Program-made: the position numbers and the translations under genes
Shown here: positions 5,620-64,000 of the stretch, piece after piece
Position numbering within the stretch: the stretch's first letter is position 1
Layout: each line of letters starts with the position of its first letter
From: Artemia franciscana
Taxonomy: Eukaryota; Arthropoda; Branchiopoda; Anostraca; Artemiidae
Length of the DNA: 64,000 nucleotides
Assembly (NCBI RefSeq): GCF_032884065.1
Contig: NC_088875.1
Coordinates: forward strand, 45,364,519-45,428,518
Reading direction: 5' to 3'
The notes under the pieces: generated by a model
The model's input: only the letters and a program-made list of their open reading frames with translations
Told to the model about the DNA's origin: nothing
The model's database searches: none

Positions 5620-6684
5620 AATTTAAAAAAAAAACACCTAAGTTCTTCTGAGGCAAGTAAAGAGTAAAGTTGAAACTTAAAACGGCCAAAAATTATTAGT
5701 TCAAAGCCTATCTCATATATACGAATAAAAAATGTACAAATAAACCGACTAATTATGATTTCCTCTGTTTCTAAGATTATAGAAAACTAGCACTTTACTG
5801 AAAACACAAAATAATATATTAGTTTTGGTACAATAAAAGCAAACCAATTAAGGCCACTTTTCACAGAATAAAAATATAGCATTTTAGGATTGATACTTTA
5901 TTATTATTTTTTTTCGTTGAATTTGGTATTACTTCTTCACAACTGCTCAGTTCAATGACTGGCTCTCATTTTGGTTCTGAAAAGGACATTTCATGATTAG
6001 TTAATAGACAAGATCGAAATAAAGCCCTCTTGATAGTATTAGGAGCACACGCTTGATAGTTTTACATTAAACTAGTACGATATTTGGTATTATGATAATA
6101 TGATATTAAAATTCACTGTTGTACAGAGAGAAATAATCTGATTCCCAGAGTTCATATTATGTCCTATTTGATCTTCATTTCGAGTAACAATAAAGCATAT
6201 TTCTTACAATTTAGGATCGTATATTACTCACTATTGGTATTATAGCTGGAAAGACCAAAATGCTACCTGATAAATCAATCCAATATCTCTATGTGCTGTT
6301 CAATGACTTTGCGGTTATTAAAAAAATATTTAATTTCACGCTTATGTTTTCAAGGTAATTTTAATCGTATACTGAAAATTACTGATGTCACAGCTGGTGT
6401 AAGACTATGAAAAGCCTTATAGATTGGTTTATTGTTGTCAGGCTATGTACTCACTTTTGAATCCGAAATCAATATCCCTGTTGGCTTTTGGGTTTTCAGT
6501 AAAGTGCTAGTTATCTATGATCCTAGAAACGTTAGTTGAAATAATTAGTTGGTTTATTTGTGCTAGTTTTATTGTAATATATATTAGATAGACTGTGAAG
6601 TAATAATTTTTGTCTGTTTTAAGTTTCAACTTCGCTCTTTACTTCCCTCGATAAAAAACTCTGTTTTTTAAAATTAACTTACAA
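5620..6684. mobile_element. Foldback element with about 185-bp inverted ends
   Basis: The segment from 5620 to about 5810 is the reverse complement of about 6495-6684, with moderate divergence. Landmarks are AAGTAAAGAGTAAAGTTGAA on the left and TTCAACTTCGCTCTTTACTT on the right. The interior (5811-6494) has no supported open frame. The end sequence resembles the HHE hairpin arm (GTAAAGAGCGAAGTTGAAAC against GTAAGGAGCGACATTAAAAC), suggesting a distant relationship. Its right half from 6403 is mirrored at 63725-64000. Confidence 0.75.
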
Positions 6685-7997
6685 AAAAGCAGAAATACTC
6701 GAACAATGAAACCTTGAAGCCTACTAGTCCCTGAGCTGTTAAATTCGATAAGCTAAAACTTGTTTTGTTGAATTTACTTAGCTGTAGGCTATATGCCCGC
6801 CTAAATTTTTTTTAAAGGAACACAGACACAATAGCGGGGAAGGTAGATGGCTCACAAGTAATTGAGCCCTCTGAGGACCTACTCGCTCTGTTCAATCGGT
6901 CCAAATATGGATGCCCTGTAAGTTTTGAATAGATTGGAGGTTAACGAAAAGGATCAGTCCTCATTCTAACGTCCCGCTGGTCTAGAGTTAATAAATTTCA
7001 ACCCTATAAGTGAAAAAAAGTACCTGCCATGCCTTTTGCTCAAAACTTAGTTGCAGGGAGTGTTGTTGGAAGAGTTGAGGCCGTGGTGTTGGAATCGTGC
7101 CATCTGCTATAGAGAAACAGAATTGAGGTAAGTTTCTGATTTAAAAAGGTCGCACAAATGCCTAATTTTCTGCTAAGAGAGGAAAGTGAGAGCCAGGGGT
7201 GTTTGACGGGCAATGGGCCTGCACTATGCCATAAATCTTAAACATTGAATATAATCATACGTTTTGTATTAAAAAAAAGGTACAACATACCTACATTTCC
7301 GCTTAAAAGTTGAAAGTGGGTGAGAAAAATACACTGCTTTGGTTTTCTAATCATTTAGATTCAAAAACATTAAATGATTCTAGTTCACACAGGGTGCAAC
7401 AGACCTATTAATTGTGCTAGAAAGTTTAGGTTCAAAATTTATGCTTTGGTTCAACAAAGATTGAAAATGATTGCTTGATACTTCCTCAAACAAGATTTTT
7501 TTGACCAAAATAACGCAGATTGAAAACTATTGCATGTTTTTAAATTTAAAAAGGGGTAGAGTGCCTCTTTTATGCTAAAAATCTGGAGATGAGTGGAGCA
7601 GTGAGCTTTTTGCAAAAGCTACAGACCCACTATAGGTGACTCGTTGCAAAAAATTTCTACTGCAAATTAATCCTAACTAACTTTACTGGTACTAAGAGTT
7701 TTTCACCCCTGCTTTTATCCCTTGTTTAACTGTCAGCTTTATCAAGGTATGCATGAAACTTCAATTAATGGATGAAATGTTGTCAATATTGCATAAAAGT
7801 TCTCAAGTCCTATTTTCACTATTAGCAAATCAAACAATAGCACATCCTACACATGCAATAATATTATTCGTATTCGTATTTTTGTTGTTGAAATAGCTGT
7901 TATAGCACTAAAAAATTAACACTAAATTACGCTACTTTTACAATCACAAAATGGTCACTTTTTAGCTACACTTACGAAATATAGCACAACTTTCAAT
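6685..7997. other. Arm sequence without recognised genes
   Basis: This matches 62412-63724 in the other arm with scattered substitutions and small indels. No open frame is shared by both copies and no known element is recognised. Confidence 0.4.
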
Positions 7998-8216
7998 TCA
8001 CTTGTTAAATGCGCTTAGGAAATATGGTACAAAGGTTTTTGTGAATCTGTTCGCACGGCAGTAGACTGGTTCCAATTTGTTGTAATGCCTAGCATGTCTG
8101 CTGATTGATGCAGATGGTGGAAGTATGGATCGGTGCTTCTCGTTTGTTAATAGTGAGTCTGCTGAGCAAGAAGAGCGAGTCCACTGAGTCATTTTAGTTC
8201 TTAGCCGCGATTCCAA
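7998..8216 (-). pseudogene. LINE ORF2 C-terminal tail (fragment)
   Basis: The minus-strand frame ends RANRFTKTFVPYFLSAFNK then a stop. The pattern R..RF..SF(I/V)P....LN is the usual end of CR1/jockey-type LINE ORF2 proteins. The preceding residues HYNKLEPVYC fit the same tail. No RT domain is next to it, so it is a 5'-truncated relic. The copy in the other arm (62190-62411) has stops in the same region. The LINE assignment is an inference from a short motif. Confidence 0.5.
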
Positions 8217-8446
8217 TCGTCTTAAGGGAGGAAAAATCCCACAGCAGACGCCGCATTGACAGGTAGGTTCATGAGGAGCTTAAATGTTTAAAATGGTTTA
8301 AAATGTTTGGGGAAATGTCAGCATCGCAGTTCTGTGAAGTTTCTCCTGGTGGTTTGGGCATCCTACCTACTCCGATATTCTCTTAAACAAAGCCACTAAG
8401 GTTTCCACAATGTCACTTCTCCACCCAGGACAGATTCACAAAGTTT

Positions 8447-9756
8447 TTCTTCTTCAGGGATGGTCGTATCGACCTAGTGGTCCTAGATTGTCGCGAGAGG
8501 GCTCATTCTAGCGGAAATTAAAAGTTTTAGTGCCCTTTGTAAGTGACCAAAAACTGGAGGGCACCTAGGTCCCCTCCCAGGCACATTTTCCCCCAAAGTC
8601 ACCAGATCAAAATTTTGAGATATCCATTCTGTTCAGCTTAGCCGAAAGCCTAATAACTATCTCTTTGGGGACGACTTAATCCCCCATAGGCCAAGGGGAA
8701 GGAGCTGCAAGTTACAAACTTTGACCATTGTTTACATACAGTAAAGGTTATTATGAAGTGCACTGACGTTTTCAGGGGAATTTTTCGCGTTGTGGTGGGG
8801 GTGGGTCGGGTAGAGGGCGTTACGTCGGAGGATCTTTCCATGGAGGAATTTATCGTGAGGGAAGAGAATTTCCATGAAGGGGCCGCAGGATTTTCTAGTA
8901 TTATTCAAGAAAAAAGAGAAAATAAATGTTTTTTTTAACTGGAAGTAATGAGCAGCATTAAAACCTAAAACGAACAGAAAATATTACGTATATAAGGGAT
9001 TTCGTCTCCTCCACAATCCTTTGCTCTGTACGCTAAAGTATTTTTTAGTAATTTCAGCTATTTATTTTACGGCCTCTGTAATTCTTAGAGAATTGGGACA
9101 AAATTCAAGCTCTAGTGTAAAGAGCGAAGTATTGACGAGGGGGCAAACCCTCTCATATACGTAATAAAAATACACACATATAGAAGTTCATTACTTAAGT
9201 TAATTCGTAAGTTACGTGTATTTATTACTAACAAAAACGTTCGTAAAAAAATAATAAAAATTCTAGTTGCATTTTTAAGTAGCCAAAAATTACAGGGCAA
9301 CTAGGCCTCCTCCCCCGCTCCTTTCTTTTATCAAGATCGTTCGATCAAAACTGAAAAAGCTATTTAGCAAAAAAAAAATTAATATGCAAATTTCGTTTTA
9401 ATTATTCATGTGCGGTGAGCCAAAACCAAAACATGCATTAATACATAAAACGTCCACAAATTAAATTAACAAAACAACTTCTTTTAACTGCAAGTAAGGA
9501 GCAACATTAAAACTTAAAATGAGCAGAAATTGTTCCTTATATGAATGGGGTTGCCCCCTCTTTAATGCCTCGCTCTTAACGCTAAAGTTTTTATTGTTTT
9601 AAAAAGTAAAGTTGTGACAAAAAGTCAAACTTTAGCGTAAAGAGCAAGGCATTGAGGAGGGAACAACCCCTTTCATATAAGGAACAATTTCTGTTCATTT
9701 TAAGTTTTAATGTCACTTCTTACTTGCAGTTGAAAAAACTTGATTTTTTTATTTAA
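8447..9756 (+). mobile_element. HHE copy 1, truncated at the TC end
   Basis: The body begins at a point equivalent to about 61330 of the full copy at 60074-61719, and the terminal TCAAACAG segment is missing. The hairpin end is intact: arms at about 9485-9620 and 9625-9756, ending in TTTTTATTTAA|T. Its hairpin variant (cctcaatgcctcgctctt type) is the same as that of the mirrored copy 60074-61719, so the two are the same ancestral insertion. The left arm has lost roughly 600 bp that the right arm keeps (61340-61965). Confidence 0.85.
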
Positions 9757-10221
9757 TTACGTGTAAATCTGGCTCAATTATCCCTTTATTTACCTTATTA
9801 AAGTTTTTTAAAGGCTTTTCTCCTCCTGATGGTTGAGTTGCACATGTTTAATAAGGTCCTTAACATGGCTTGCCGCTGACGCAAGTTCCAAGCTCTTCAC
9901 CTGAAACTAGAAACTTAACAGCTAAGCTAGTCGAGGCAATTTGTTAAGATAATAAATGATTACCATCCGATTGCAAGAGGAGACAGCAATCAACTGCAGC
10001 AAATTGCATTTGCTGCAGTTGTGCGTTCTTTCGAGGTACTAATTCGAGGTACCATTTGTCTGGGTACCAGATTTCAAGACATTGCGGAGGTCTGCCACAA
10101 ACAGCATTTACCATTCACCATGCTACAAACACCATTCGTGGGATCATCATTTGAAATGCTGAGAAAGCAGACATATTTTGCTGTCAATAATATAATCTCT
10201 GTGTCTCGTTTCTTTCAATAA
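9757..10221. other. Arm sequence between two HHE copies, with a perfect 13-bp hairpin
   Basis: This matches 59606-60073 reversed. A perfect inverted repeat CAACTGCAGCAAA / TTTGCTGCAGTTG with a 5-base loop lies at 9991-10021. The other arm does not preserve it, so it arose or decayed after the arms diverged. No gene is supported; the open frame at 10021-10221 is not kept in the other arm. Confidence 0.55.
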
Positions 10222-11951
10222 TTAAATAAAAAAAAACTAGTTTTTTAAACTGAAAGTAAGGAGCGATATTAAAACTTAAAATGAACAGAAATTACTCCGT
10301 ATATGAAATGGGTTGTCCCCTCCGCAATCCCTCGCTCTTTACGCTAAAGTTTTTAATTGTTTTAAAAAGAATTGTGGCAAAGAATCAAACTTTAGCGTAA
10401 AGCGCAAGGGATTGCGGAGGGGACAACCCATTTCATATACGGAGTAATTTCTGTTCGTTTTAAGTTTTAATATCGCTCCTTACTTTCAGTTTAAAAAACT
10501 AGTTTTTTTTCATTTAATTTCTGAACGTTTTTGAATTAATGCATTTTTGATTTTGGCTCTCCGCACATTAATTATTAAAATGATATTTGCATATCAATTT
10601 TTTTTTGGCTAAACAGCTTTCTCTTAGTTTTGATCAGACGATTTTGAGAAATAAGGGGTGGGGAAGGAGGCCTAGTTGCCCTTTAATTTTTCGGTTACTT
10701 AAAAAGGCAACTAGAACTTTTAATTTTTAACGAACGTTTTTATTAGTAAAAAATATACGTAACTTAAGAATTAACTTACGTAACAAACTTTTATACTCTT
10801 ATATTTTTTATTATGTATATGAGGGGGTTTGTCCCCTCGTTAATACCTCGCCTTTTACACTAAATCTTAAGTTTTGTCCCAATTCTTTAAGAATGACCCC
10901 TGAATCAGAAAGGCCGTGGAATAAATAGTTGAAATTACTAAAAATACTTTAGCATAAAGAGCAAGGTATTTATCTCCTCCTGAATACCTCGCTCTTTATG
11001 CTAAAGTATTTTTAGAATTCCTCATATGCGTAATAATCTCTGTTCTTTTTAAGTTTTAATGCTACTCCTTACTTTCAGTTGAAAAACTTTTTCGTGTTTA
11101 TTTTTTCATTGTTTTTTTTAATAGTAATGCTAGAAAATCCCGCACCCTTTTCATTGAATTTCTCTTCCCCCATGACATATTCCTCCAATAGAAGATCCTC
11201 CCACCTAGCCCCCTCTCCTCAACCCCACCCCAAACCAAAAAAATCCCCCTGAAAATGTCCGTACACTTCCCAATAACCATTACTGTGTGTAAACACTGGA
11301 CAAAGCTTGTAACTTGCAGCCCCTCCCCCAGAGACTGTGGGGGAGTGAGTCATTCCAAAGACATAGTTAATATGGTTTTCGACTATGCTGAACAAAATGG
11401 CTATCTCAAAATTTGGATCTGTTGACTTTGGAAAAAACATGAGCGTGGGAGGGGGCCAAGGTGCCCTCCAATTTTTTCGGTCACTTAAAAAGGGCGCTAG
11501 AACTTTACATTTCCGTTAGAATGAGCCCTCTTGCGACATTCTAGGACCACTTGGTCGATACGATGACCCCTGGGGAAAAAAAACCAAATAAACACGCACC
11601 CGTGATCTGTCTTCTGGCAAAAAATACGAAATTCCACATTTTTGTAGATAGGAGCTTGAAATTTTTGCTATAGGGTTCTTTGATACGCTGAATGCGATGG
11701 TGTGATTTTCGTTAAGATTCTTTGACTTTTAGGGGGTGTTTCCCCCTATTTTCCAAAATAAGGCAAATTTTCTCAGGCTCGTAACTTTCGATGACAAAGA
11801 TTAAATTTGATGAAACTTATATATCTAGAATCAGCATAAAAATTCGATTCTTTTGATGTATCTTTTAGCATCAAAATTCCGTTTTTTAGAGTTTTGTTTA
11901 CTATTGAGCCGGGTCGCTCCTTACTACAGTTCGTTACCACGGACTGTTTGA
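10222..11951 (-). mobile_element. HHE copy 2, full length, present only in the left arm
   Basis: It starts TTAAATAAAAAAAAACTAG at the hairpin end and finishes CTGTTTGA. The hairpin arms (about 10222-10352 and 10388-10517) share copy-specific variants such as GAGCGATATT and CCGCAATCCC. A second, diverged hairpin module lies at about 10810-11075. The right arm has the empty site between 59605 and 59606. Flanks join as ...ataA^TATAAATA in the filled copy and ataA^CATAAATA in the empty copy, with no target duplication. No transposase or Rep/helicase frame is present, so it is non-autonomous. Confidence 0.9.
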
Positions 11952-13299
11952 TATAAATAAATCTACAATATAAAATATAAATTTAGGAATCTTCCCTTTA
12001 GATCCAGAACGTTGTACATATGCCAATTAGCTGCACTTTCATTGCTCTGATTAAAACAAAATCACCCTTTACAAAAGCACCAAAAATATAACTGTTTCTT
12101 TTGTTACTCCGAGGGAGTCTTTACCCGACTGAGAAAGTTGTTGACATGGAATAAATTTAGAGAATGATTAAAACATGTGCGACGCTGGAAAATCTTTGCT
12201 TACTTTTGAATTTCTTGTACAGCATCAAACTGTTTCGAAAAAATCATGGTACATCTATTAATACCTACGTCACACAATTTACCAGGGACTGGAAGTGTAT
12301 TTGGGGGGGGGGAGGAATACAGACCCACTTTTTACTTTTGTAGCAAATTAGGTCTAAGCTTGTTCTTGAGCAGATTCATTTTCTTATTTTTGTTTTGTGT
12401 GCACCATGACAAAAAAGCTGTCAGGACCTCAAAAGCTTCAAAATGGTATATCTCGAACCTTTGTATTGCATCAAATTTGTGCAAAATTGATGCAATAGAC
12501 AAGCATCACCTTTTTAAGGATTATTGATTAGTGTCAAAAAGAAATTTTATGCCTCTATTTTTAAAAATTGATGTTTTTACCGTGAGCCGACTTTCTAATG
12601 TCACTACTAAGAAAAAAGTAAAGAGGGTCCTCCAATTTCTCAATTTTATTAACTAGTCAAAGAACGTTTTAAGTTATGAGACACGTGTGAATGAACTCCT
12701 CTACTTAAGTCACAAACACAGTAATTAAAATCGCAAACTCAACCAAATCATTAACAGGAATGATTTGTAAATATAAACAATAAACAAATAAAAAAAAAAA
12801 CTAAAATTAAAATTCTGACAGAACCTTATCGCAAATCTACCATTATTTTTTTATTGATTGTTTTTTGTTTCAAAACACAATTAGCAAGCTTTTTTTTACT
12901 TTTTCAGAAGAATGAATTTAAAATTAGTAATTTGCTCCATCTATTTAGTGGATCAACTTTTTTTCTATAGCCTAAAATCTCATGAAGAATTTGGATCGAA
13001 AACCATTAAGACAATTAAGCCAATATTTGACGCGTGCAACAAGTCCCAATAATTTTGCAGTAGACATTAATTAAACCTATAGCAATAAAACCTATATATA
13101 AATGCTATAAAAGCATTAAACCTATATTAAATTTCAACCTTTCTTTTTAAAGGATTTTCATTCTCTCCATGCTATACACCAGCTGAAGTTACTTTTAGCC
13201 CGTAGGCGCATGAAGTTTGCGCATAAGTATCTTTTCAAATGTTTGCTTCTTTTTTGAAAACTTTGACAATATCGAAAACATTGACAATTTTTTGACAAT
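11952..13299. other. Arm sequence without recognised genes
   Basis: It is the counterpart of roughly 58640-59605. The 93-codon open frame at 12246-12527 includes a G-run (12302-12310) and is not preserved in the other arm. The stretch is AT-rich non-coding DNA. Confidence 0.4.
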
Positions 13300-13515
13300 A
13301 TCGAAACATAATATATAGAATTTTTTTTATATAGAATTTTGTCAAAAATAGAATTATGCAAAAATAGAATTATCCGAAATTATGCAAATATTATAGAATT
13401 ATATAATTATAGAATTATGCAAAAATAAGTATAGAATTATATTGAATTATTATAGTTATTATAGTATTATTACAGTTATCTTTATATTATTATAGTTATT
13501 ATTATAACTATATTC
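13300..13515. repeat. AT-rich short-period repeat (ATAGAATTAT / TTATTATAG types)
   Basis: Repeated ATAGAATTAT and TATTATAG motifs run through this stretch. The mirrored position around 58610-58640 lacks the expansion, so it grew in the left arm only. Confidence 0.6.
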
Positions 13516-13518
13516 TAT

Positions 13519-13866
13519 GCATACTGAGTCTCTGCTTGACGGATGGTTCTGACAAAACTACCTTCCCAGGGAAAGAGTTACAGATGGATACAAAGTTTAT
13601 TTTTCAAATACCCCTACAACATTACCGGCTATTGTCGTCTTAATAGTTTCCTGCATAGAATTGGTAAAGTTCTGTCCAGCTTGTGCCATTGTTGCCAAAT
13701 TCCTGAAACTTACAGCCATCTTTTATCTGATTGTCCTTTAGATTGTACCCAGATAATGTTTTTATCTTTGGGTTTATCTGAACTAGATCTTAGCTTTCCT
13801 TTTAGTTTGAATTTAGAAGTGAGTAATAAGTATGTTAGAAACCTTGTTGTTTTTTTTTTTTTAAGA
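13519..13866 (+). pseudogene. LINE ORF2 C-terminus with Cys/His cluster (fragment)
   Basis: The frame from 13543 encodes TGYCRLNSFLHRIGK followed by LCHCCQIPETYSHLLSDCPL. This is the familiar post-RT C-terminal pattern of jockey/I-like LINEs (TGH..fn.yL.r...C.C...ET..H.L..C). There is no RT domain upstream. An A/T-rich tail with GATTAGATTAG repeats follows, as expected for a LINE 3' end. The mirrored copy at 58320-58610 has frameshifts in the same domain. Confidence 0.65.
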
Positions 13867-14579
13867 TTAGATTAGAAATTTCGTAGTTGGTGATCATTGG
13901 TTGTGTAATAATTTTCTTCATTTTTTTTTCTTCATTTGAGACTTTAAGATTTGATTAGTGTTTTCTTTTTGATGTCATGTAGTTTCAGTTTAGTATATAG
14001 AGTGAAATACCTTGTTTGGTTTACTCACTATTAAATACTTAGCCCTACAAGTTTCTTCTTTAAAGCAATGAGAAGCAGCTGTGTCACAACTCTTCATTCT
14101 ACTTCTGTATTTGCTCTTTAAATTTCTTTAGAATGGTTTAGCGTATTTAATTGATGTTTGTCTTTTGTGTTCTTCACTGATACTTTTTCCGCCTTTTACT
14201 TAAAGCGTTGTTGTCCTAACCATTTTTTTCATCATTAGAAATATGGGCAGTACCAATATTTGCCTCCAAAACTAGACCTGAGAGTGTCTTAGGTGGCTTC
14301 AAGGTACCAAAAATCATCTGGTTGCTTTAACTAGTTGTACAAAAGAGAATATAATTCTTAAAGAAAATAGAATATGGTCGCCATGGTAAAAGAATTAAGA
14401 AAAACACACTTGTAACAAAGACAAGTTTTTTTTTAAATTTAGAACAATAAGGCTTACGTTAGAAAGAATTAATTAGAAAGAGCCTAAAAAGGTTTACTTT
14501 CTAAGAAAACAAAAGGCTTTGAAATAGATTTCAATAAATAGAAGTTGTTGAAAACGATCAAAGGATTCCCTTTCAAAAT
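13867..14579. other. Intergenic arm sequence upstream of the GPCR-like gene
   Basis: It contains the probable 3' tail of the LINE fragment, then about 500 bp of unassigned sequence conserved with 57260-57756 and 58086-58300. The other arm carries an extra insertion of about 330 bp at the equivalent of 14068. Confidence 0.4.
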
Positions 14580-14612
14580 ATAAAGTTCAAGCCCGTTCTG
14601 TACAACTCAGTT
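14580..14612 (+). promoter_or_regulatory. Candidate core promoter: TATA box plus arthropod initiator
   Basis: TATAAAG lies at 14580-14586 and TCAGTT, which fits the arthropod initiator TCAKTY, at 14607-14612. The T of the TATA box is 29 bp before the initiator A, the standard spacing. Transcription would begin about 15 bases before the ATG. Both motifs and their spacing are unchanged in the other arm. The promoter call is inferred from motifs only. Confidence 0.55.
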
Positions 14613-14623
14613 GATATTCAACT

Positions 14624-15550
14624 ATGGAGCTTTTTCTGTTCCAGAAAGTGTTTCTTCTTCTAGTTGAAATAGCAATGAGTTCATTAAATTTCGCTTGCAT
14701 TGCCTTATTTCCTTTTGCAATAATGGCAGCAAGAAAATATGACACTGTGGAGAGCACATTGTTGGCAATCGAGTTCACTGGCTCTTTGAACGTTGTGAGC
14801 ACCCGGATTCTCTACACGGCGTTTATGTTTCAACGATTAGAGTCAATATTTTGTGTGTGGACGGCTGTAGCTGATATTATTAACATAGTTGTACGGAACA
14901 CAGCCCTTGGGTCGCTGCTTTTGCATAAATTTTTCAAGTACAGACTTCCTGGGTTCTATCGCTCACTGAAATTTAGTAAGAAGTTATTGATAACGATCGG
15001 ACCAGGATTTTTATGTTCACTCCCTACTGTGATTGCCCTACCAGCTTTAAAACGAAACATTGTTGTTGCTGTTTGTTTAAGAGAAACTGACAGGTTTTTT
15101 GATAATGTAAGAGGTTTACCTCCAATTTATCTAGTATTTTTAGTACCAAACTTAGTTTTTCTGTTTTTAGGAACAGTAGCTCAGGGTCATGAATACAGCG
15201 AGGCGTTCGATAGTAATCGCTCGCTAAGACTAGTAAAGGCGGAAATATATAGTTTGATTCTTTTCGAGATTTGTATTCATACACGTGTCCCTTATTTATA
15301 CCTAGATCCAGTTTTTCTGGCATCTCCTTGGGGTTTTGCTGTTTTTATTTTTGTAACGCAGTTTATATTATTCTTTTTTGCGACCTTCCCTCCCCTTTCT
15401 TACTTCGTGACTAATAAAAAGCTATTCAAAGAAGCTAAAGGTAGAGCAATCTCATTTTGGAGAAAAGTGATAAAATGGTTCAATCCTGTCAAGCCAAGAG
15501 TAAACGCCGAAACGGTTACGAATGTACAACCGTTTAGTGACAGTAGTTGA
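14624..15550 (+). CDS. Orphan rhodopsin-like (class A) GPCR, single exon, left-arm copy
   Basis: The 308-residue protein has seven hydrophobic segments at about 9-35, 44-67, 75-100, 120-141, 167-187, 208-228 and 236-262. Cys77 at the start of helix 3 and Cys151 in the second outer loop could form the class A disulfide. Helix 6 keeps a proline (FEICIHTRVPYL), and helix 7 ends in FPPLSYFVTNKKLF, a variant of the NPxxY...F ending with Pro in place of Asn. There is no DRY motif. No intron is evident; the ATG at 14624 follows a good TATA/initiator pair. Against the other arm I count 10 amino-acid changes (V9I, A24T, F29Y, S74P, I88M, L99I, I123V, I168V, L227I, T245A) and about 20 synonymous changes, which points to purifying selection. 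Ligand and subfamily are unknown; a lineage-specific chemoreceptor-type GPCR is a guess. Confidence 0.75.
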   Translation: MELFLFQKVFLLLVEIAMSSLNFACIALFPFAIMAARKYDTVESTLLAIEFTGSLNVVSTRILYTAFMFQRLESIFCVWTAVADIINIVVRNTALGSLLLHKFFKYRLPGFYRSLKFSKKLLITIGPGFLCSLPTVIALPALKRNIVVAVCLRETDRFFDNVRGLPPIYLVFLVPNLVFLFLGTVAQGHEYSEAFDSNRSLRLVKAEIYSLILFEICIHTRVPYLYLDPVFLASPWGFAVFIFVTQFILFFFATFPPLSYFVTNKKLFKEAKGRAISFWRKVIKWFNPVKPRVNAETVTNVQPFSDSS

Positions 15551-15614
15551 ATATAAAAAAATCCTTTATTTACGTCATGCCATTCAAAGAGAGGATTCAG
15601 AGTTGAATTATATC

Positions 15615-15692
15615 AGGTCTGCAAAACGGTTACGAAACGGTTACGAACGTGCAACCGTTTAGTGACAGTAGTTGAATAAAAAAAAAAAATCC
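15615..15692 (+). pseudogene. Duplicated 3' end of the GPCR-like gene beside an HHE copy
   Basis: About 60 bp repeats the last codons, stop and immediate downstream of the gene (CCGTTTAGTGACAGTAGTTG and A-run) after a 65-bp interval, with a doubled AACGGTTACGA stretch. It directly abuts the truncated HHE copy at 15704. The other arm has larger relics of the same 3' end, so this is probably what remained after a deletion. Confidence 0.7.
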
Positions 15693-15703
15693 GAACATGT
15701 ATT

Positions 15704-16818
15704 TTCATATACGGAGTAATTTCTGTTCGTTTTAAGTTTTAATGTCGCTCCTTACTTTCAGTTAAAAAAATAGTTTTTTTTATTTAATTTCTAAACGTTT
15801 TTGGATCAAATGCATGTTTTGATTTTGGCTCTCCGCAGAGGAATAATTAAAACGAAATTTGCATTTTTTTTTTGGCTAAATGGCTTTCTCATAGTTTTGA
15901 TCGAATGATTTTGAGAAAAAAGAGCGGGGGAGGAAGCCTAGTTGCCCTCACTTAAAAAGGCAACTAGAACTTTCAATTTTTTACGAATGTTTTTATTAGC
16001 AAAAGATATACTTAACTTAAAAATTAGATTACGTAACCAACTTTTGTACTCTCATGTTTCATCGATGGATAGATCGGAACTTTCAATTCCTCTATGGAAA
16101 GTTCCCCCAACATATCCCCCTCTTCTCAGCCCCTCCCACCAACCAAAAAATCCCCCTGAAAACGTCTGTACATTTCCCAATAACCATTACTACATGTAAG
16201 CACTGGTCAAAGTTTGTAACTTGTAGCCCTTCGCACGGGGACTATGGGGGAGTAAGTCGTCCCCAAAGACATAGTTATAAGGTTTTTCGACTACGCTGAA
16301 TAAAATGGCTATCTCAGAATTTTGATCCGTTGACTTTCGGAAAATAATTAGCGTGGTATAATTTTTTTGGTCATTTAAAAAGGGCACTAGAACTTTTCAT
16401 TTCCGTTAGAATGAGCCTTCTCGCAACATTCTAGAACCACTGGGTCGATATGATCACCCCTGAAAAAAAAAACAAAAAAAAAAAACAAATAAACACGCAT
16501 CCGTGATCTGCCTTGTAGCAAAAAATACAAAATTCCACATTTTTGTAGATAGGAGCTTGAAACTTCTACAATAGGGTTGTCTGATACACTGAATCTGATG
16601 GTGTGATTTTTATTAAGATTCTATGACTTTTAGGGGGTGTTTCCCCCCTATTTTTTAAGATAAGGCAAATTTTCTCAGCAAACTTATATATTTAAAATCA
16701 GCATTAAAATGCGATTCTTTTGATGTAGCTATTGGTATCAAAATTCCATTTTTTAGAGTTTTGGTTACTATTGAGCCGGGTCGCTCCTTACTACAGTTCG
16801 TTACCACGAACTGTTTGA
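15704..16818 (-). mobile_element. HHE copy 3 (left), truncated in the hairpin
   Basis: It begins inside the second hairpin arm (catatacggagtaattt) and runs through the body to CTGTTTGA at 16811-16818. It is the mirror of 51030-52705, which keeps part of the first arm. Truncation is next to the duplicated gene 3' end, consistent with a deletion that removed about 4 kb found in the right arm. Confidence 0.85.
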
Positions 16819-19700: not shown

Positions 19701-19734
19701 AATTAAAGTTAAAGAAGTTAGAATATTTTAAACG

Positions 19735-45665: not shown

Positions 45666-45689
45666 ATATTTTAACTTCTTTAACTTTAA

Positions 45690-53377: not shown

Positions 53378-53551
53378 TCAACTATTGTCAATAAAAAGAT
53401 TGTGACGATTCGGCATTTATATTGACTTTCTCAAATTATACCAATTTGAAACTTTGTTTTTCCAAAATGAGATTTGTCTAGCTTGTTTAGCTTGTTTGAT
53501 TATCTTTGATGTTTTACAAAACAAATATGAGAAACCGCATCCTCATGGAGA
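53378..53551 (-). pseudogene. 3' relic of a GPCR-like gene (copy B)
   Basis: Aligns with the last ~75 codons of the gene at 56282-57208. TTCAACTATTGTCA corresponds to the end of the coding region, then CATTTATATTGACTT, TCCAAAATGAGATTTG and CTCATGGAGAT correspond to blocks up to about residue 234. Heavily mutated. It is cut at 53551 where an HHE was inserted. Confidence 0.6.
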
Positions 53552-55214
53552 TTAAATAAATAAAAAAACAAGTTTTCTTAACTGAAAGTAATGAGCGACA
53601 TTAAAACTTAAAACGAACAGAAATTATTCCGTATATGAAAGGGGCTGTTCCCTCTTCAACACCCCGCTCTTTACGCTAAAGTTTGACTCTTTCTCTCCAT
53701 TCTACTTTTTAAAACATTAAAAATCATTAGCGTAAAGAGCGGGGTGTTGAAAAGAGAATAGTCCCTTTCGTATATGGAGTAATTTCTGTTCGTTTTAAGT
53801 TTTAATGTCGCTCCTTACGTTCAGTTAAAAAACTTGTTTTTTATTTAATTTCTGAACGTTCTTGAATTAATATATGTTTTTATTTTGGCTCTCTGCATGG
53901 GAATAATTAAAACGAAATTTGCATATTTTTGTATTTTTTTGCTAAATGGCTTTCTCATAGCTTTGATCGGACAATTTTTAGAAAAAAAGGAACGGGGGAG
54001 GAGGCCTATTTACCCACCAATTTTCGGCTACTTAAAAAGGGAACTAGAACTTTTAATTTTTTTTGAACGTTCTTATTAGTAAAAATATATGTAACTTACG
54101 AATTAACTTACATAACAAACTTCTATATTCGTATGTTTTCACTACTTATATGAGGGGGTTCGCCTTCTCGTCAACACCTCGCTCTTCACACTAAAGCTTA
54201 AATTTTGTCCCTAATTCCCTAATTAGGGTTCCCTAAGAATTCCTAATTCCCTAAGAATGACCCCTGAGTCAAAAGGCCGTAGAATAGATAGTTGAAAATA
54301 CTAAAAATACTTTAGCATAAAGAACGAGGTATTAGGAAGAAGTGAACCCCTCACATCCGTAATAATTTTTGTTCGTTTTAAGTTTTAATGCTGCTCCTTA
54401 CTTTCAGTTGAAAAAAGTTTTTCATATTTATTTTTTCATTTTTTTTTAAATGCTGGATAATTCTGCGCCCCCTTCATGGACATTCTCTCCCCCCATGATA
54501 AATTCATCCATGGAAAGCTCCTCCCATCTAAAAACGTCTGTACACTTCACAATAACCATTACTATATGTAAACACTGGTCAAAGTTTGTAGCTTGCAGCC
54601 CCTCCCACAGGGACTGTGGTGAAGTAAGTCGTCCCCAAAGACATAGTTATTAGGTTTTTAGACTATGTTGAATAAAACGGCTATCTCAGAATTTTGATCC
54701 GGTGACTTTGGGGAAAAAACGAGCGTGGGGGGGCCTAGATGCCCTCCAATTTTTTGGTCACTTAAAAAGGGCACTAGAACTTTTTTTTCCGTCAGAATGA
54801 GCCCTCTTGCGACATTCTAGGACCACTGGGTCGATACGATCACCCCTGGAAAAAAAAAATAAACACGCATCCGTGATCTGGCAAAATATACAAAATTCCA
54901 CATTTTTTTTGATAGGAGCTTCAAGCTTCTACTGTGGAGTTCTCTGATACGCTAAATCTGATAGTGTGATTTTCGTTAAGATTATATCACTTTTGAGGGG
55001 CGTTCCCCTTATTTTCTAAAATAAGGCAAATTTTCTCAGGCTCGTAGCTTTTGATGGGTAAGATTAAACTTGATGAAACTTATATATTTAAAATCAGCAT
55101 TAAAATGCGATTCTTTTGATGTAACTATTGGTATAAAAATTCCGTTTTTTAGAGTTTCGGTTACTCTTGAGCCGGGTCGCTCCTTACTACAGCTCGTTAC
55201 CACGAACCGTTTGA
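53552..55214 (-). mobile_element. HHE copy between two GPCR-gene relics, right arm only
   Basis: Starts TTAAATAAATAAAAAAACAAG and ends CCGTTTGA. Hairpin arms are at about 53552-53690 and 53728-53848, sharing the variant TTCAACACCCCGCTCTTTACG. The left arm lacks the whole region. Confidence 0.87.
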
Positions 55215-55726
55215 TACCAAGGTAGTTTTGATACCGCAACTACTATTAGATGCGGAATTCGTCTATGTTTTGACATATCAAAAAAAACGAAGTTGACACC
55301 TTTGGACAAAATTATGTCTCCATGGGTATGTGCAATTTAAAAGTGAACACATTCACTGATGTAATATGAATATAGCAACAAAAATGCATTCTAATTCTTG
55401 TATTTGACGAAACAATTCAGCAGCTGCTAAGCTCTGAAGATAAATGAGTCTCTTTTTACCACTTTGAGCCAAATTAATCCGTCTTTATTTTGTTTACTGC
55501 TCTCAAGTTTTGAACTAAAATGATGACACTTGTCCTTTGAAATTGGTTCTGCAGTCCTTTTCGTGTCGTACACATTATAATAAAATGAAAGTGTTCAATT
55601 TCACCCATGTAACTCAGAGAGCCTGCAGTTTGAATATAATTTTTTTTTATTGGACTTAATTCAATTTAATGCTGGCCTCTCTATTTACCTGTGGCATGAA
55701 CTAAAAATTGTATCTTTATTTTGAGT
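55215..55726 (-). repeat. Downstream flank of a GPCR-gene relic (copy A)
   Basis: Positions 55262-55726 are the paralogue of 52911-53377. No coding signal. Confidence 0.6.
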
Positions 55727-55965
55727 ACTGTCACTACACGTTAACAGCTTCGTAACATTTTTGGCTTTGACTCTGGACTTGACCATGATACATCGATTCC
55801 CAACCTACTTTTTCCAAAATGGTATTTGTCAATCTCTAGATTCTTTGAATAGCTTTTTGTTTGTCTCAAAGTAAGAAAAGGGAAATAATTTTGCAAAAAG
55901 AAAAATATAATCTAAGAAACAATTGCAAGAAACCACAGAACCCCATAGAGATACCAGAGCCTCAT
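55727..55965 (-). pseudogene. 3' relic of a GPCR-like gene (copy A)
   Basis: Clear alignment with the intact gene's last 80 codons: TACTGTCACTACACG, TTTGACTCTGGACTTGACC, TTTTTCCAAAATGG, TTCTTTGAATAGCTTTTTG, AAGTAAGAAAAGGGAAA and CCCCATAGAGATACCAGA. Frameshifts and substitutions destroy the frame. Like copy B it stops near residue 233 of the protein, which suggests that both derive from one truncated ancestor. Confidence 0.72.
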
Positions 55966-55982
55966 TTTTTCTTCAACTTAAT

Positions 55983-56086
55983 CTAACTTAATACTGACTC
56001 CTCTAGTCATCTATGCCATGAAACAAATCACTCTCTAACTTAATACTGACTCCTCTAGTCATCTATGCCATGAAACAAATCACTTA
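55983..56086. repeat. Two tandem copies of a 52-bp unit
   Basis: CTAACTTAATACTGACTCCT through AAACAAATCACT occurs at 55983-56034 and again at 56035-56086, almost identical. It is a recent local duplication. A further short GPCR 3' scrap (TTTGGCATTTACTCTTAGCT) follows at about 56137-56160. Confidence 0.85.
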
Positions 56087-56281
56087 ATCTTCCTTTAATT
56101 TACTGTCTCCAAATGTTTGAACCTACTTAATGTTTTTGGCATTTACTCTTAGCTAGGGGGTAATACCGTATGGAGACGCTAAATCTTATACCTTGATGTT
56201 TTGTTTTGCAGACCTGATATAATTCAAGTCTGAATCCTCTGTTTGAATGGCATGAAGTAAATGAGGGATTTTTTTTTATAT

Positions 56282-57208
56282 TCAACTACTGTCACTAAAC
56301 GGTTGCACGTTCGTAACCGTTTCGGCGTTTACTCTTGGCTTGACAGGATTGAACCATTTTATCACTTTTCTCCAAAATGAGATTGCTCTACCTTTAGCTT
56401 CTTTGAATAGCTTTTTATTAGTCACGAAGTAAGAAAGGGGAGGGAATGTCGCAAAAAAGAATAATATAAACTGCGCTACAAAAATAAAAACAGCAAAACC
56501 CCATGGAGATGCCAGAAAAACTGGATCTATGTATAAATAAGGGACACGTGTATGAATACAAATCTCAAAAAGAATCAAGCTATATATTTCCGCCTTTACT
56601 AATCTTAGCGAGCGATTACTATCGAACGCCTCACTGTATTCATGACCCTGAGCTACTGTTCCTAAAAACAGAAAAACTAAGTTTGGTACTAAAAATACTA
56701 AATAAACTGGAGGTAAACCTCTTACATTATCAAAAAACCTGTCAGTCTCTCTTAAACAAACAGCAACAACAATGTTTCGTTTTAAAGCTGGGAGGGCAAT
56801 CACAGTGGGGAGTGAACATAAAAATCCTGGTCCAATCGTTACCAATAACTTCTTACTAAATTTTAGTGAACGATAGAAGCCAGGAAGTCTGTACTTGAAA
56901 AATTTATGCAAAATCAGAGACCCAAGGGCTGTGTTCCGTACAACCATGTTAATAATATCAGCTACAGCCGTCCATACACAAAATATTGGCTCTAATCGTT
57001 GAAACATAAACGCCGTGTAGAGAATCCGGGTGCTCACAACGTTCAAAGAGCCAGTGAACTCGATTGCCAACAATGTGCTCTCCACAGTATCATATTTTCT
57101 TGCTGCCATTATCGCAAAAGGATATAAGGCAATGCAAGTGAAATTTAATGAACTCATTGCTATTTCAACTAGAAGAAGAAAGATTTTCTGGAACAGAAAA
57201 AGCTCCAT
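56282..57208 (-). CDS. Orphan rhodopsin-like GPCR, single exon, right-arm copy
   Basis: 308 residues, intact and collinear with 14624-15550. It has the same seven hydrophobic segments, Cys77/Cys151 pair, helix 6 Pro223 and FPPLSYFVTNKKLF helix 7 end. The ten replacement differences are mostly conservative (Val/Ile/Leu, Thr/Ala), and I count about 20 synonymous differences, so both copies appear constrained. Downstream lie at least two truncated relics, so the gene belongs to a local tandem family. A plus-strand frame at 56503-56859 inside the gene is an antisense shadow. Confidence 0.75.
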   Translation of the reverse strand: MELFLFQKIFLLLVEIAMSSLNFTCIALYPFAIMAARKYDTVESTLLAIEFTGSLNVVSTRILYTAFMFQRLEPIFCVWTAVADIINMVVRNTALGSLILHKFFKYRLPGFYRSLKFSKKLLVTIGPGFLCSLPTVIALPALKRNIVVAVCLRETDRFFDNVRGLPPVYLVFLVPNLVFLFLGTVAQGHEYSEAFDSNRSLRLVKAEIYSLILFEICIHTRVPYLYIDPVFLASPWGFAVFIFVAQFILFFFATFPPLSYFVTNKKLFKEAKGRAISFWRKVIKWFNPVKPRVNAETVTNVQPFSDSS

Positions 57209-57756
57209 AGTAGAATATCAACTGAGTTGTACAGAACGGGCTTGAGCTTTATATTTTGAAGGGAATCCTTTGATCGTTTTCAACAACTTCTATGTATTGA
57301 AATCTATTTCAAAGCCTTTTGTTTTCTTAGAAAGTAAACCTTTTTAGGCTCTTTCTAATTAATTCCTTCTAACGTAAGCCTTATTGTTCTAAATTAAAAA
57401 AAAACTTATCTTTGTAACAAGTCTGTTTTTCTTAATCCTTTTACCATGGCGACCATATTTTATTTTCTTTAAGAATTATATTCTCTTTTGTACAAATAGT
57501 AAGAACAACCAGATAATTTTTGGTACCTTTGAGCCAGCTAAGACATTCTCAGGTCTAGTTTCGGAGGCAAATATTGGTACTGCTCACATTTCTAATAACA
57601 AAAAAATGGTTAGGACAAGAACACTTTAAGTAAAAGTCGGAAAACAGTTTCGGTGAGGAACACATAAGACAAACAGCAATTAAATACGCTAAACCAGTCT
57701 TGAGAAATTTAAAGTGCAAATGCAGAAGTTGGATGAAGAGTTGTGACACAGCTGCT
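57209..57756. other. Upstream region of the right GPCR-like gene
   Basis: Mirror of 14080-14623. Apart from the promoter motifs nothing is recognised. Confidence 0.4.
57220..57253 (-). promoter_or_regulatory. Candidate core promoter of the right-arm GPCR-like gene
   Basis: On the minus strand TATAAAG (57253-57247) and TCAGTT (57225-57220) have the same spacing as in the left arm. The 5' UTR would again be about 15 bases. Confidence 0.55.
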
Positions 57757-58085
57757 AGGACAAACTAGGACAGACAGACAGACAGACCAACAGAATTTGT
57801 GATCGCTATATGTCACTTGGTTAATACCAAGCGTCATAAAAATCACTAGGAGTGGCAACCCTGAGCAGAAGACAGACTGATTCAAACAAAACAAGCCATT
57901 ATAAATGAGAATAATCACCAGTTAGATTTGGCAAGAATTCTCTTTTTAATTATTGATTTAGATTGCCTACTGACCTAATTGTGTTGCGAGAGCAACACTT
58001 TGGTTTTGTCCTTTTTTGTGCTAGCACCCCGATTTCAGCTTATTTCTACAAAGTGGTAAGGGTCTAACCTCAGCAGCTTTTACAA
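57757..58085. mobile_element. About 330-bp repeat insertion with (GACA)n, right arm only
   Basis: The left arm is continuous at about 14068-14090 (cagctgct then tctcattgct) where the right arm has this extra stretch. It contains AGGACAGACAGACAGACAG, a palindromic CTTGGTTAATACCAAG at about 57818, and TGTTGCGAGAGCAACA at 57980-57996. The (GACA)n end matches the end of the satellite at 38016-38033, so the two belong to one dispersed family. Confidence 0.65.
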
Positions 58086-58319
58086 AAAGTGTCTTCTTCT
58101 CATTGCTTGAAAGAGGAAACTTGTAGGGGTAAGCAAGTATTTATTCATGAGTAAACCAACCAAGGTATTTCACTCTATGCACTAAACTAAAACTACATGA
58201 CATCTAAAAGAAAACACTAATCTAGTCTTAAAGCAATCTAATCTAACAACACTAATCTAATCTATTAGCAAAGTCTCTAATATACTTACTACTCACTACT
58301 AAATTCAAGCTAAAAGGAA

Positions 58320-58610
58320 AGCTAATACCTAGTTCAGATAAACATAAAGACAAAAACATTTTCTGGGTATAATATAAAGGACATGCAAATAAAAAATGGC
58401 TGGAAGTTTCAGGAATTTGGCAACAATGCACAAGCTAGAATGACATACCAATTCTCTGCAGAAAACTATTAAGACGACAATAGCCGGTAAATTTCTAGGT
58501 GTATTTGATAAATAAAACTTTGTATCCATCTGTAACTCTTTCCTTGGGAAGGTAGTTTCGTCAGAACCATCCTTTAGGCAGAGGCTCAGTATGCATAGAA
58601 TATACTGATT
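58320..58610 (-). pseudogene. LINE ORF2 C-terminus fragment, right arm
   Basis: Mirror of 13519-13866. The ELQMDTKFYLSNTPRNLP frame and the TGYCRLN-like block are in different frames, so this copy carries additional frameshifts. Confidence 0.6.
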
Positions 58611-60073
58611 AAAATAGAGAAAGTACAAGTGGAATATTACACAATTACGATTCACCTGTTGCTGCAAACATTATTTCTAAAAAAAGCTAGCGCCGATAAA
58701 TCAGACTTGTGTAGACCTTGAAAGACACATCTTGTTCATATTCAAATTAAACTTGTTCATATTTATATTTAAAATTAACGGTAACATTAAAGTTTAACGG
58801 TAAACTTTACCGGTAACGTTTTAATGTTACAAACTGTAACAGTTAAAAAAAGTAACCTCAGTACCTAAAGGTGGTGCATAGCATGAAGAGAATGAAAATC
58901 GTTAAAAAGAAAGCTTGAAATTATACTACAGGTTTGATAAATGTCTACTGCAAAATTATTGGGACTCCTTGCACGCGTCAATTATTGACTTAATTGTCTT
59001 AATAGTTTTCGATTCAAACTCTTCATGAGACCGTAGGCTATAAAAAAAAGGTTGTAATGATCCACTAAATAGAGGGAACAAATTACTAATTTTAAATTCA
59101 TTTTCCTGAAAAAGTAAAAAAAAAAGGCTTGCTTATTGCGTTTTGAAAAAAAAAATCCATAAAAAAAAATGGTAGGTTTGCGATAAGGTTCTGTCAGAAT
59201 TTTAATTTTTCTTTGATTTGTTTATTGTTTATCAGTGGGTCTGTATCTTCCCCCCCCTCAAAAAATACACTTCCCATCCATAGTAAATTGTGCAATATAA
59301 TGGATGTACCATGATTTTTTCGAAACAATTTGATGCTGTACAAGAAGTTCAAAAGGTAGCAAAAATTTCCCAGCGTCGCATATGTTCAACATTCTCTAAA
59401 TTTATTCCATGTCAAGGACTCTCTTAGTCGGGTAAAGATTCCCTCGGAGTAACAAAAGACGCAGTTATATTTTTGGTGCTTTTGTAAAGGCTAATTTTGT
59501 TCTAACCAGAGCAATGAAAGTGGCATATGTAAAACATTCTGGGTCTAAAGGGAAGATTCCTAAATTTATATTTTATGTTTTATTTATATTATAGATGTAT
59601 TTATGTTATCGAAACGAACGAGACACAGAGATTATATTATTGACAGCAGAATCAAATCTCAGCATTTCAAATGATGATCCCACGAATGGTGTTTGTGGCA
59701 TGATGAATGGTAAATGCTGTTTGTGGCAGACCTCTCTAATGTCTTACAATGTCTTGAAATATGGTACCCAGATGAATCGTACCTGGAAATGGTACCTCTA
59801 AAGAACGCAAAAGTGCAGCAAAAGCAAAACCCTTATTGATTGCTGCCTCCTCTTGCAATCGGATGGTAATCATTTATTCTCTTAACAATTTGCCTGGACT
59901 AGCTTTGCTGCTAAGTTTTTAGTTTCAGATGAAGAGCTTGGAACTTGCATCAGCGGCAATCCATGTTAAGGACCTTATTAAACATGTGCAACTCAAACAT
60001 CAGGAGGAGGAAAGAGCTTTAAAAAACTTTAATAAGGTAAATAAAGTGATAACTGAGCCAGATTTACACGTAA
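58611..60073. other. Arm sequence holding the empty site of the left-arm HHE
   Basis: Mirror of 9757-10221 plus 11952-13500. The junction 59605/59606 is the uninterrupted target of HHE 10222-11951. No gene; frame 59595-59801 is not shared. Confidence 0.5.
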
Positions 60074-61719
60074 TTTAATAAAAAATAAGTTTTTTTTAAC
60101 TGCAAGTAAGGAGTGACATTAAAACTTAAAACGAACAGAAATTGTTACTTATATGAAAGGGGTTGTTCCCTCCTCAATGCCTTGCTCTTTACGCTAAAGT
60201 TTGACTCTTTGTCACAACTCTACTTTTAAAGCAATATAAACTTTGGCGTAAAGAGCGAGGCGTTGAGGAGGAGACAACCCCATTCATATAAGAAACAATT
60301 TCTGCTCGTTTTAAGTTTTAATGTCGCTCCTTAATTGCAATTAAAAAAACTTGTTTTGTTTATTTAATTTGTGAACTTTTTTGTATTAAGGCATGTTTTG
60401 GCTTTGGCTCACCGCGCATGAATAATTAAAACGAAATTTGCCCATTAATTTTTTGTTGTTGCTAAATAGCTTTCTCAGTTTTGATCGGACGATCTTGATA
60501 AAGCAAAGGGGCGGGGGAGAAGGCCTAGTTGCCCTCTAATTTTGGTTACTTAAAAATGCATCTAGAATTTTTATTTTTTTTACGGACGTTCTTGTTAGTA
60601 ATAAATACACGTAACTTATGAATTAACTTAAGTAATGAACTTCTATATTTGTGTATTTTTATTACGCATATGAGAGGGTTTGCCCCCTCGTCAATTCCTC
60701 GCTTTTTACACTAGAGCTTGAATTTTGTCCCAATTCTCTAAGAATGACCCCTAAATCGCAAAGGCCGTAGAGTAAATAGTTGAAATTACTAAGAATACTT
60801 TAGCGTAAAGAGCAAGATATTATGGAGGAGACGAAATCCTTATATACGTAATATTTTCTGTTCGTTTTAGGTTTTAATGCTGCTCATTACTTCCAGTTAA
60901 AAAAAATATTTATTTTCTCTTTTTTTAATAATGATAAATTCCTCCATGGAAAGATCCTCCGACGTAACCCCTCTCCCCGACCCACCCCTACCCCCACGCG
61001 AAAAATTCCCCTTAAAACGTCTGTACACTTCCTAATAACCATTACTGTATGTAAACAATGGTCAAAGTTTGTAATTTGGAGCCCCTCCCCTGGGGCCTAT
61101 GGGGGATGAAGTCGTCCCCAAAGACAGAGTTATTAGGTTTTTGGTTAAGCTGAACAGAATGGATATCTCAAAATTTTGATCCCATGACTTTGGGGGAAAA
61201 TGTGCGTGGGAGGGGGCCTAGGTGCCCTCCAATTTCTTCGTCACTTAATAAGGACACTAGAACTTTTAATTTCCGTTAGAATGAGCCATCTCGTGACATT
61301 CTAGGGCCACTGAGTCGATACGACTACCCCTGAAGAAAAAAAAAACAACAAGCAAACAAATAAACACACATCCGTGATCTGTCTTCTGGCAAAAAAAAAT
61401 ACAAAATTCCACATTTTTGTAGATAGGAGCTTGAAATTTCTACAGTAGAGTTCTCTAATACGCTGAATTTGATGGTGTGATTTTCGTTAAGATTCTATGA
61501 CTTTTAGGGGGTGTTTTCCCCTATTTTCTAAAATGAGGTAGATTTTCTCAGGCTCGCAACTTTTGATGAGTAAACTTGATGAAACTTATGTAGTTAAAAT
61601 CAGCATTAAAACGCGATTCTTTTAATGCAACTATTGGTATCAAAATTTCGTTTATAGAGTTTTGGTAACTATTGAGTCGGGTCGCTCCTTACTACAGTTC
61701 GTTACCACGAACTGTTTGA
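60074..61719 (-). mobile_element. HHE copy 1 (right), full length
   Basis: Starts TTTAATAAAAAATAAG and ends CTGTTTGA at 61719. Hairpin arms at about 60074-60205 and 60238-60368 share the CTTATATGAA and CCTCCTCAA variants. It is the complete version of 8447-9756. Confidence 0.9.
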
Positions 61720-62189
61720 CAATCCGAATAGAGCAAACCAATGGAGGTAATGTGCCAGTCTGTTCAAATTAAGAGTATTACAGACGATCGTTCTTTTTAC
61801 TTCTGTGTTAGACTCTGTCAGTTTGGAAAAAGCTATTTTTTCGTAGAAACGCTATGGAAAAGATTTGTCCCTTGTCTATGAATTGTCTGGAAACGAACAA
61901 ATAAGCATTTATGATACAATTCGTAACTTGTCAGTACGAGATAATTCAGTAGTCAGTTTACCCTCCTAATCACTTTGTGAATCTGTCCTGGGTCGAGAAG
62001 TGACATTGTGGAAACCTCAGTGGCTTTGTTTAAGAGAATATCGGAGTAGGTAGGATACCCGAAACACCAGTAGAAACTTCACAGAAATGCGATGCTGACA
62101 TTTCCCCAAACATTTTAAACCTCTTGCAGCTCCTCATGAACCTACGTGTCAATGCGGCGTCTGCTGTGGGATTTTTCCTCCCTTAAGAC
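61720..62189. other. Arm sequence, nothing recognised
   Basis: Mirrors 8217-8446 from about 61965. 61720-61965 has no left counterpart because of the deletion there. Confidence 0.4.
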
Positions 62190-62411
62190 GATTGGAATCA
62201 TGTCTAAGAACTAAAATGACTCAGTGAACTCGCTCTTCTCGCTCAGCGGACTCACTATTAACAAACGGGAAGCACCGATCCATACTTCCACCATCCGCAC
62301 GAGTCAGCAGACTCACTAGGCATTACAACAAATTGGAACCAGTCTAGTGCCGTGCGAACAGATTCACAAAAATCTTTATACCATATTTCCTAAGCGCATT
62401 TAACAAGTGAA
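62190..62411 (+). pseudogene. LINE ORF2 C-terminal tail, right arm
   Basis: Same tail as 7998-8216, reading RANRFTKIFIPYFLSAFNK after in-frame stops. Relic. Confidence 0.5.
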
Positions 62412-63724
62412 TTGAAAGTTGTGTCATATTTCGTAAGTGTAGCTAAAATGTGACCATTTTGTGATTGTAAAAGTAGCGTAATTTAGTGTTCGTTTTTTAG
62501 TGCTGTGACAGCTATTTCAACAAACAAATACGAATACGAATAATATTATTGCATATGTAGGATGTGCTATTGTTTGATTTGCTATTAGTGAAAATAGGAC
62601 TGGAGAACTTTTATGCAATATTGACAATATTTCATGCATTAATTGAAGTTTCATGCATACCTTGATAGAGCTGACAGTTAAACGAGGGACAAAGGCAGGG
62701 GTAAACAACTCTTAGCACCAGTAAAGTTAGTTAGGATTAATTTGCAGTAGAAATTTTTTGCAACGAGTCACCTAAAGTGGGTCTGTAGCTTTTACAACGC
62801 TCATTGCTCCACTCATCTCAAGATTTTTAGCATAAAAGAGGTGTACTTTACCCATTTTTAAATTTAAAACATGCAATAGTTTTTAATCTGCATTATTTTG
62901 GTCACAAAAAACCTGTTTGGGGAAGAATCAAGCAATCATTTTCAATCTTTGTTGAACCAAAGCATAAATTTTGAACCTAAATTTTCTAGCACAATTGATA
63001 GGTCTGTTGCACCCTGTGTGAACTAGAATCATTTAATGTTTTTGAATCTAAATGATTACAAAACCAAAACAGTGTATTTTTCCCACCCACTTTCAGCTTT
63101 TAAGTGGAAATTTAGGTATGATGTACCTTTTTTTTAATACAAAACGCATGATTATATTCAACGTTTAAGATTTATGGCATAGCGCTGGCTCATTGCCCGT
63201 CAAACACTCCTGGTGTCCAATTTCCTTTTTTAACAGAAAATTAGGCATTTGTGCGACCTTTTTAAATCAGGAACATACCTCAATTCTGTTTCTCTATAGC
63301 AGACGACACGATTCCAATACCACGGCCTCAACCCTTCCAACACCACTTCCTACGACTAAGTTTTGAGCAAAAGGCATGGCAGGTACTTTTTTTCACTTAT
63401 AGGGTTGAAATTTATTAACTCTAGACCTGCGGGACGTTAGATTGAGGACGGATCCTTTTCTCGAACCTCCAATCTATTTGAAACTTACAGGGCATGTATA
63501 TTTGAACCGATCGAACAGAGGGAGTAGGTCTTCAGAGGGCTCAATCACTTCTGAACCATCTACCTTTCCGCTATAGTGTCTGCGTTACTTTAAAATTTGT
63601 TAGGCGGGCATATAGCCTACAGCTAAATAAATTCAACTAAACAAGTTTTAGCTTATCGAACTTAACAGCTCAGGGATTAGTAGGTTTCAAGGTTTCATTG
63701 TTCGAGGATTTCTGGTTTATTCTA
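62412..63724. other. Arm sequence without recognised genes
   Basis: Mirror of 6685-7997. Confidence 0.4.
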
Positions 63725-64000
63725 AGTTAATTTTAAAAAACAAAGTTTTTTTCGAGGGAAGTAAAGAGCGAAGTTGAAACTTAAAAGTGACAAGAATTAT
63801 TACTTCACAGTCTATCTAATTATATATGTCAATAAAACTAGCACAAATAAAACAACTAATTATTCAAATAATGTTTCTAGGATTATAGAGAACTAGCACT
63901 TTACTGAAAACACAAAAGCCAACAGGGATATTGATTTCGGATTCAAATGGGAGTACATAGCCTGAAAACAACAAACTAATCTATAAGGCTTTTCACAGTC
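63725..64000. mobile_element. Foldback element, right-arm copy, cut by the window end
   Basis: Matches the reverse complement of 6403-6684, with GAAGTAAAGAGCGAAGTTGA and the following end block. The rest lies beyond the window. Confidence 0.75.

Follow-up and report, generated by a model that had tools for sequence, protein, structure and literature searches.

A mirror-image region around an assembly gap, probably two diverged haplotypes joined head to head

Mirrored and duplicated haplotypes in published assemblies

In the published passages drawn on here, a gap most often separates the two copies of a false duplication (Ko et al., 2022, PMC9516828), and overlapping haplotype contigs align up to contig ends, within 10 bp in 11,113 of 13,576 cases in chimpanzee (Kelley & Salzberg, 2010, PMC2864568). 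The same passages give haplotype false duplications as adjacent or tandem, and the words "inverted" and "orientation" are absent from them (PMC2864568, PMC9516828). For Ciona savignyi, tandem misassembly of alleles is reported for just 148 of the 16,747 contig pairs whose gap estimate was positive (PMC1868934). Erroneous scaffolding can create artificial palindromes, according to an excerpt that also mentions the palindromes of Y chromosomes (PMC7953838). For the 2013 assembly of Adineta vaga, Nowell et al. (2018, PMC5916493) count 23 palindromes among 25 homologous blocks lying on the same scaffold, and many of the breaks in collinearity that were detected lie across scaffold gaps. Palindromes of B. 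schlosseri were checked by depth and long reads and are considered real by the authors (PMC12448946).

Our locus lies in a window of 64,000 nucleotides, the whole stretch of DNA that was analysed. Like Y-chromosome palindromes, it has inverted arms round a spacer and a gene in each arm. Conversion keeps the arms of Y-chromosome palindromes near-identical, whereas here the arms diverge by 6.5% and no identical tract exceeds 160 bp. The genome of A. vaga was reportedly reassembled later, by Simion et al. in 2021. With the palindromes of the 2013 A. vaga assembly the locus shares head-to-head homologous blocks, several percent diverged, and a suspected scaffolding origin; it differs in holding one gene and many mobile elements (PMC5916493, PMC7953838). 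With heterotype false duplications and haplotigs it shares two versions in one scaffold, a gap between them and homology to the contig end, a likeness drawn from sequence alone, but here the second version is flipped and highly diverged, whereas placement there is adjacent (PMC2864568, PMC9516828). As in the C. savignyi haplomes (Small et al., 2007, PMC1868934), alleles diverged enough to assemble apart would share one scaffold; misplaced alleles there lie in tandem. A term search of a limited library found no paper that treats uncollapsed haplotypes, palindromes and artefacts together.

Layout of the mirror and divergence between its arms

Self-BLAST of the 64-kb window aligned 6403-25574 with 64000-38111 as inverted, collinear stretches, joined in a chain of 13 segments that runs from 6403/64000 to 25574/38111. 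This confirms the mirror order that a sequence-only reading of the window had described, with arms of 19 and at least 26 kb round a 12.5-kb spacer: the left arm measures 19,172 bp and the right at least 25,890 bp, and between them lie 12,459 bp of spacer plus the gap (Table 1). The piece after the gap was also compared with the piece before it by strand, with the intervals of the main repeat family set by hand from self-BLAST. Outside that family, 13,851 bp matched in inverted orientation versus 277 bp in direct orientation, by which chance or repeat-only similarity was ruled out as the cause of the mirror.

Homology of the right arm begins at the first base past the gap, and the spacer stops where the gap begins. 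Two inverted homologous arms are thus present on one sequence, as in a palindrome, though only across a gap; of the two inner junctions, over both of which the sequence of a palindrome should be continuous, the left is continuous and the right consists of 77 N. As in heterotype false duplications, a gap lies between two copies, at the edge of the right one, and homology reaches the end of that copy's contig (38111), the last 160 bp being identical. The left inner edge, 25574, falls inside the first 33-bp unit of a minisatellite that continues uninterrupted into the spacer. The outer end of the right arm is the end of the window, and the ends of the left arm are mere counterparts of the gap edge and the window end. 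Since every arm end is the gap, the window end or a counterpart of these, no rearrangement breakpoint is visible. At its right end the spacer holds a tandem array of 280-285-bp units (36654-37965) followed by a GACA run, which is a typical sort of place for a contig to end. The sequence-only reading had missed that a gap directly adjoins the right arm on its inner side, that divergence falls toward this gap and that no breakpoint is visible.

The arms differ by 6.5% on average (1007 substitutions in 15,457 aligned bases), with 3.4-13.5% in individual blocks; this alignment took in the nine longer of the 13 chain segments, excluding 13130-13193, 15703-16004, 15991-16059 and 19144-19276. Divergence was then scored in intervals of 300 bp, of which 52 remained when those with fewer than 150 aligned bases were dropped, and 48 after removal of four over the gene. 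It falls toward the gap, from 9.1% in the outer intervals (423 of 4652 bases; 6403-14078), where repeats and low-complexity DNA may inflate the value, through 6.2% in the middle (398 of 6388; 16085-23168) to 3.5% in the inner intervals (82 of 2325; 23168-25574). Divergence rises with distance from the inner edge (Spearman 0.65) and is far from uniform (dispersion 4.4), both over the 48 intervals outside the gene.

Within the first 246 bp from the gap there is one difference between the arms. At the local divergence rate the run of identity at the edge has a probability of 0.0038; as a run occurring anywhere in the alignment, 160 bp is an unremarkable length (permutation mean 126, 95th percentile 180). 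Near-identical arms or long identical tracts, the marks of a palindrome kept by conversion, were not seen at 6.5% divergence and a longest run of 160 bp. The low inner divergence is not due to strong coding constraint, because the reverse transcriptase shared by the inner parts of both arms is broken and the two pieces of it that were compared carry 23 nonsynonymous versus 9 synonymous changes.

Table 1. Features of the mirror region and of its repeat families, in window coordinates.
Feature	Positions	Strand	Remarks
Left arm (haplotype A in the preferred reading)	6403..25574	+	Contiguous with spacer; self-BLAST, chain
Spacer	25575..38033	+	Only dispersed repeats in common with right piece
Assembly gap, 77 N	38034..38110	.	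Sole N-run in the window
Right arm (haplotype B, flipped, in the preferred reading)	38111..64000	-	Runs to window end; self-BLAST, chain
160 bp identical to first 160 bp past gap	25415..25574	+	Longest identical run in the nine aligned blocks
33-bp minisatellite, 2.7 copies	25552..25640	+	Homology stops within its first copy
308-aa hydrophobic ORF with several membrane-spanning stretches, left copy	14624..15550	+	
308-aa ORF, right copy	56282..57208	-	10 of 308 residues differ from left copy
Decayed LINE-type reverse transcriptase, frame in pieces	23398..25277	-	In both arms; right copy from 38453
Helitron-like element, left arm only	10222..11951	+	Without target duplication; right-arm site empty
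Helitron-like element, right arm only	40511..42199	+	Left-arm site empty
Internally deleted Helitron-like family copy, left arm	19146..19532	+	
Composite Helitron-like family copy, right arm	45863..48773	+	Opposite orientation, 3 bp from site used at 19146
Further Helitron-like family copies, plus fragments	53551-55215, 60073-61719, 26619-28129		

The shared reading frame and the mobile elements

The 308-aa ORF is open in both arms and strongly hydrophobic. The sequence-only reading had put the divergence of the shared gene at about 3%, which holds for the gene itself (32 of 930 nt, 3.4%), but the whole arms diverge more, by 6.5%. Between the two copies dS is 0.105-0.109, dN 0.015 and dN/dS ~0.14. 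This purifying selection on both ORFs bears out part of the earlier suggestion of two functional gene copies, but alleles would show the same; it is compatible with alleles and paralogues equally. Searched as a 311-aa frame, the shared ORF matched no Pfam family at E 0.1; against the PDB it gave a single chance-level match (E 0.3), and among viral_contigs none of five pattern matches was confirmed. With two input sequences, an AlphaFold2 model reached a mean pLDDT of only 34.2 and was of no use. Flanking the ORF are TATTCAACTA (14611-14624) and its reverse complement TAGTTGAATA (15551-15565), an arrangement that may be due to chance. Three shorter frames within 21258-22892 have dN/dS of ~0.45-0.7 and may not be genes. 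The right arm also holds a perfect 52-bp tandem duplication at 55982-56084.

Clean mobile-element insertions, as claimed earlier, are seen as precise one-arm insertions with empty counterpart sites at two places, one in each arm, both of an abundant family of ~1.7 kb. Helitrons insert between A and T and do not duplicate their target, carry a short hairpin just before the 3' end, and begin with 5' TC and end with 3' CTRR. In the family described here, both loci with empty sites show this mode of insertion (one of the sites now reads A|C), and a hairpin precedes the 3' end in four of five folded ends (z -2.4 to -4.9), the fifth being without one (z -0.03). The family ends are TTAAATAAA and GTTTGA rather than 5' TC and 3' CTRR. 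A 13-bp target duplication considered at 40511 was rejected, as the flanks show a chance overlap of BLAST ends.

Because they lie 3 bp apart and in opposite orientation, the family copies at 19146 and 45863 are best interpreted as two separate insertions at one favoured AT-rich site (AATAATATTA). A long, imperfect palindrome takes up the first 300 bp of six copies (82-91% self-complementary by self-BLAST), and a term search of a limited library found no paper on a Helitron with palindromic ends. The composites at 26619 and 45863 each consist of a 3' end, then ~335 bp of other DNA, then another 3' half; their halves at 26803-28129 and 47432-48773 are 96.6% identical (self-BLAST), an arrangement suggestive of read-through past the element's end.

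Elsewhere in the window, a 118-bp satellite occupies 1-1457 (12.4 copies, 96% matches), and a retroelement remnant at 1981-2717, which we take to be Penelope-like, contains a GIY-YIG domain that passes the Pfam cut-off (E 1.8e-5). A tRNA search of the window found none, and an Rfam search of the window returned no family at gathering score. Decayed reverse transcriptases, the GIY-YIG frame and simple repeats identify the DNA as eukaryotic; in keeping with this, a 28-base pattern taken from the Helitron-like family had no match in genome_contigs or viral_contigs.

Origin of the mirror

We conclude, with a probability of about 0.72 and on the evidence of the sequence, that the mirror probably represents two diverged haplotypes converging into a shared spacer, one of them attached flipped at the far end by scaffolding. 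Haplotypes A (6403-25574) and B (38111-64000, reverse-complemented) would converge at 25574, past which they would be similar enough to collapse into one stretch, the spacer, leaving haplotype A contiguous with it. The true neighbour of B's inner end would be the left end of the spacer, a place already occupied by A, and a proximity-based scaffolder could put that inner end against the free right end instead, across 77 N, with the order A, spacer, flipped B as the outcome. This proposal agrees with the account of A. vaga in the part of Nowell et al. (2018, PMC5916493) cited above. Haplotype contigs have to part in strongly diverged sequence and stop once the differences disappear, so that a gradient, an identical tip and a gap would coincide if the arms are haplotypes; in a real palindrome, conversion between the central parts of the arms would yield the gradient as well, but not the gap. 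Both origins had been offered in the sequence-only reading. Boundary gap, gradient and terminal identity make the head-to-head join of two diverged haplotypes the better supported, while the large palindrome is weakened in that its sole junction lies in an assembly gap and that gradient and terminal identity are as expected of converging haplotypes. The second copy of the gene probably does not represent an additional gene.

The main point against a haplotype origin is the level of divergence: a dS of ~0.11 and an overall difference of 6.5% would be very large between alleles and would call for suppressed recombination, a hyperdiverse species, or a genome that is hybrid or asexual. It also counts against such an origin that PMC2864568 and PMC9516828 present false duplications as adjacent or tandem and not flipped, that the 160-bp run is not unusual by length alone, and that the gradient fits arm-to-arm gene conversion in a true palindrome too. 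Real haplotypes of a recombination-suppressed region, sex-linked or within an inversion, are a special case of the haplotype explanation in which assembly still accounts for the head-to-head arrangement; the divergence, deeper than most outbred species allow, and the numerous arm-specific insertions would suit it, but nothing in the sequence points to sex linkage or an inversion, and we consider this case distinctly improbable.

The paralogue-like divergence fits two explanations by duplication. One is an old, true inverted duplication of a segment, in which the arms of a palindrome would flank the 12.5-kb spacer, with two gene copies maintained by selection, occasional conversion toward the centre and a right junction that falls by chance in a gap; this appears unlikely, though it accounts for the intact ORFs with dN/dS ~0.14, the independent insertions in each arm and the divergence minimum near the centre, and the B. 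schlosseri palindromes are described as having passed depth and read checks (PMC12448946). Against it, the gap hides the only place where a junction could show, the left edge lies within an uninterrupted minisatellite, the lack of identical tracts above 160 bp gives no sign of recent arm-to-arm conversion, and the uneven divergence is unlike that of a single event without conversion. Its full form, a genuine palindrome several million years old, with 3.5% divergence at the centre rising to 9% outward, conversion strongest centrally, two functional membrane-protein copies and separate invasions of the arms, seems to us quite unlikely. Alternatively, the right piece may be a paralogous contig of another locus that was misjoined, since the join is a gap and simple or tandem repeats at both contig ends invite false links. 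Such a misjoin predicts neither the fall of divergence to zero at the contig end nor a piece that ends exactly where it matches the left contig's continuation, and we regard it as very improbable.

A flipped second haplotype thus described would offer a signature by which flipped haplotigs of other assemblies, too, may be recognised without reads: a gap right at the edge of the homology, divergence declining to zero as the contig end is reached, and a head-to-head arrangement round a single-copy stretch. Should reads prove the mirror real, the locus would represent a palindrome whose arms show a gradient of conversion. If the region is two haplotypes and is nevertheless counted as real, the genome would be credited with a gene duplicate and a palindrome that are both false.
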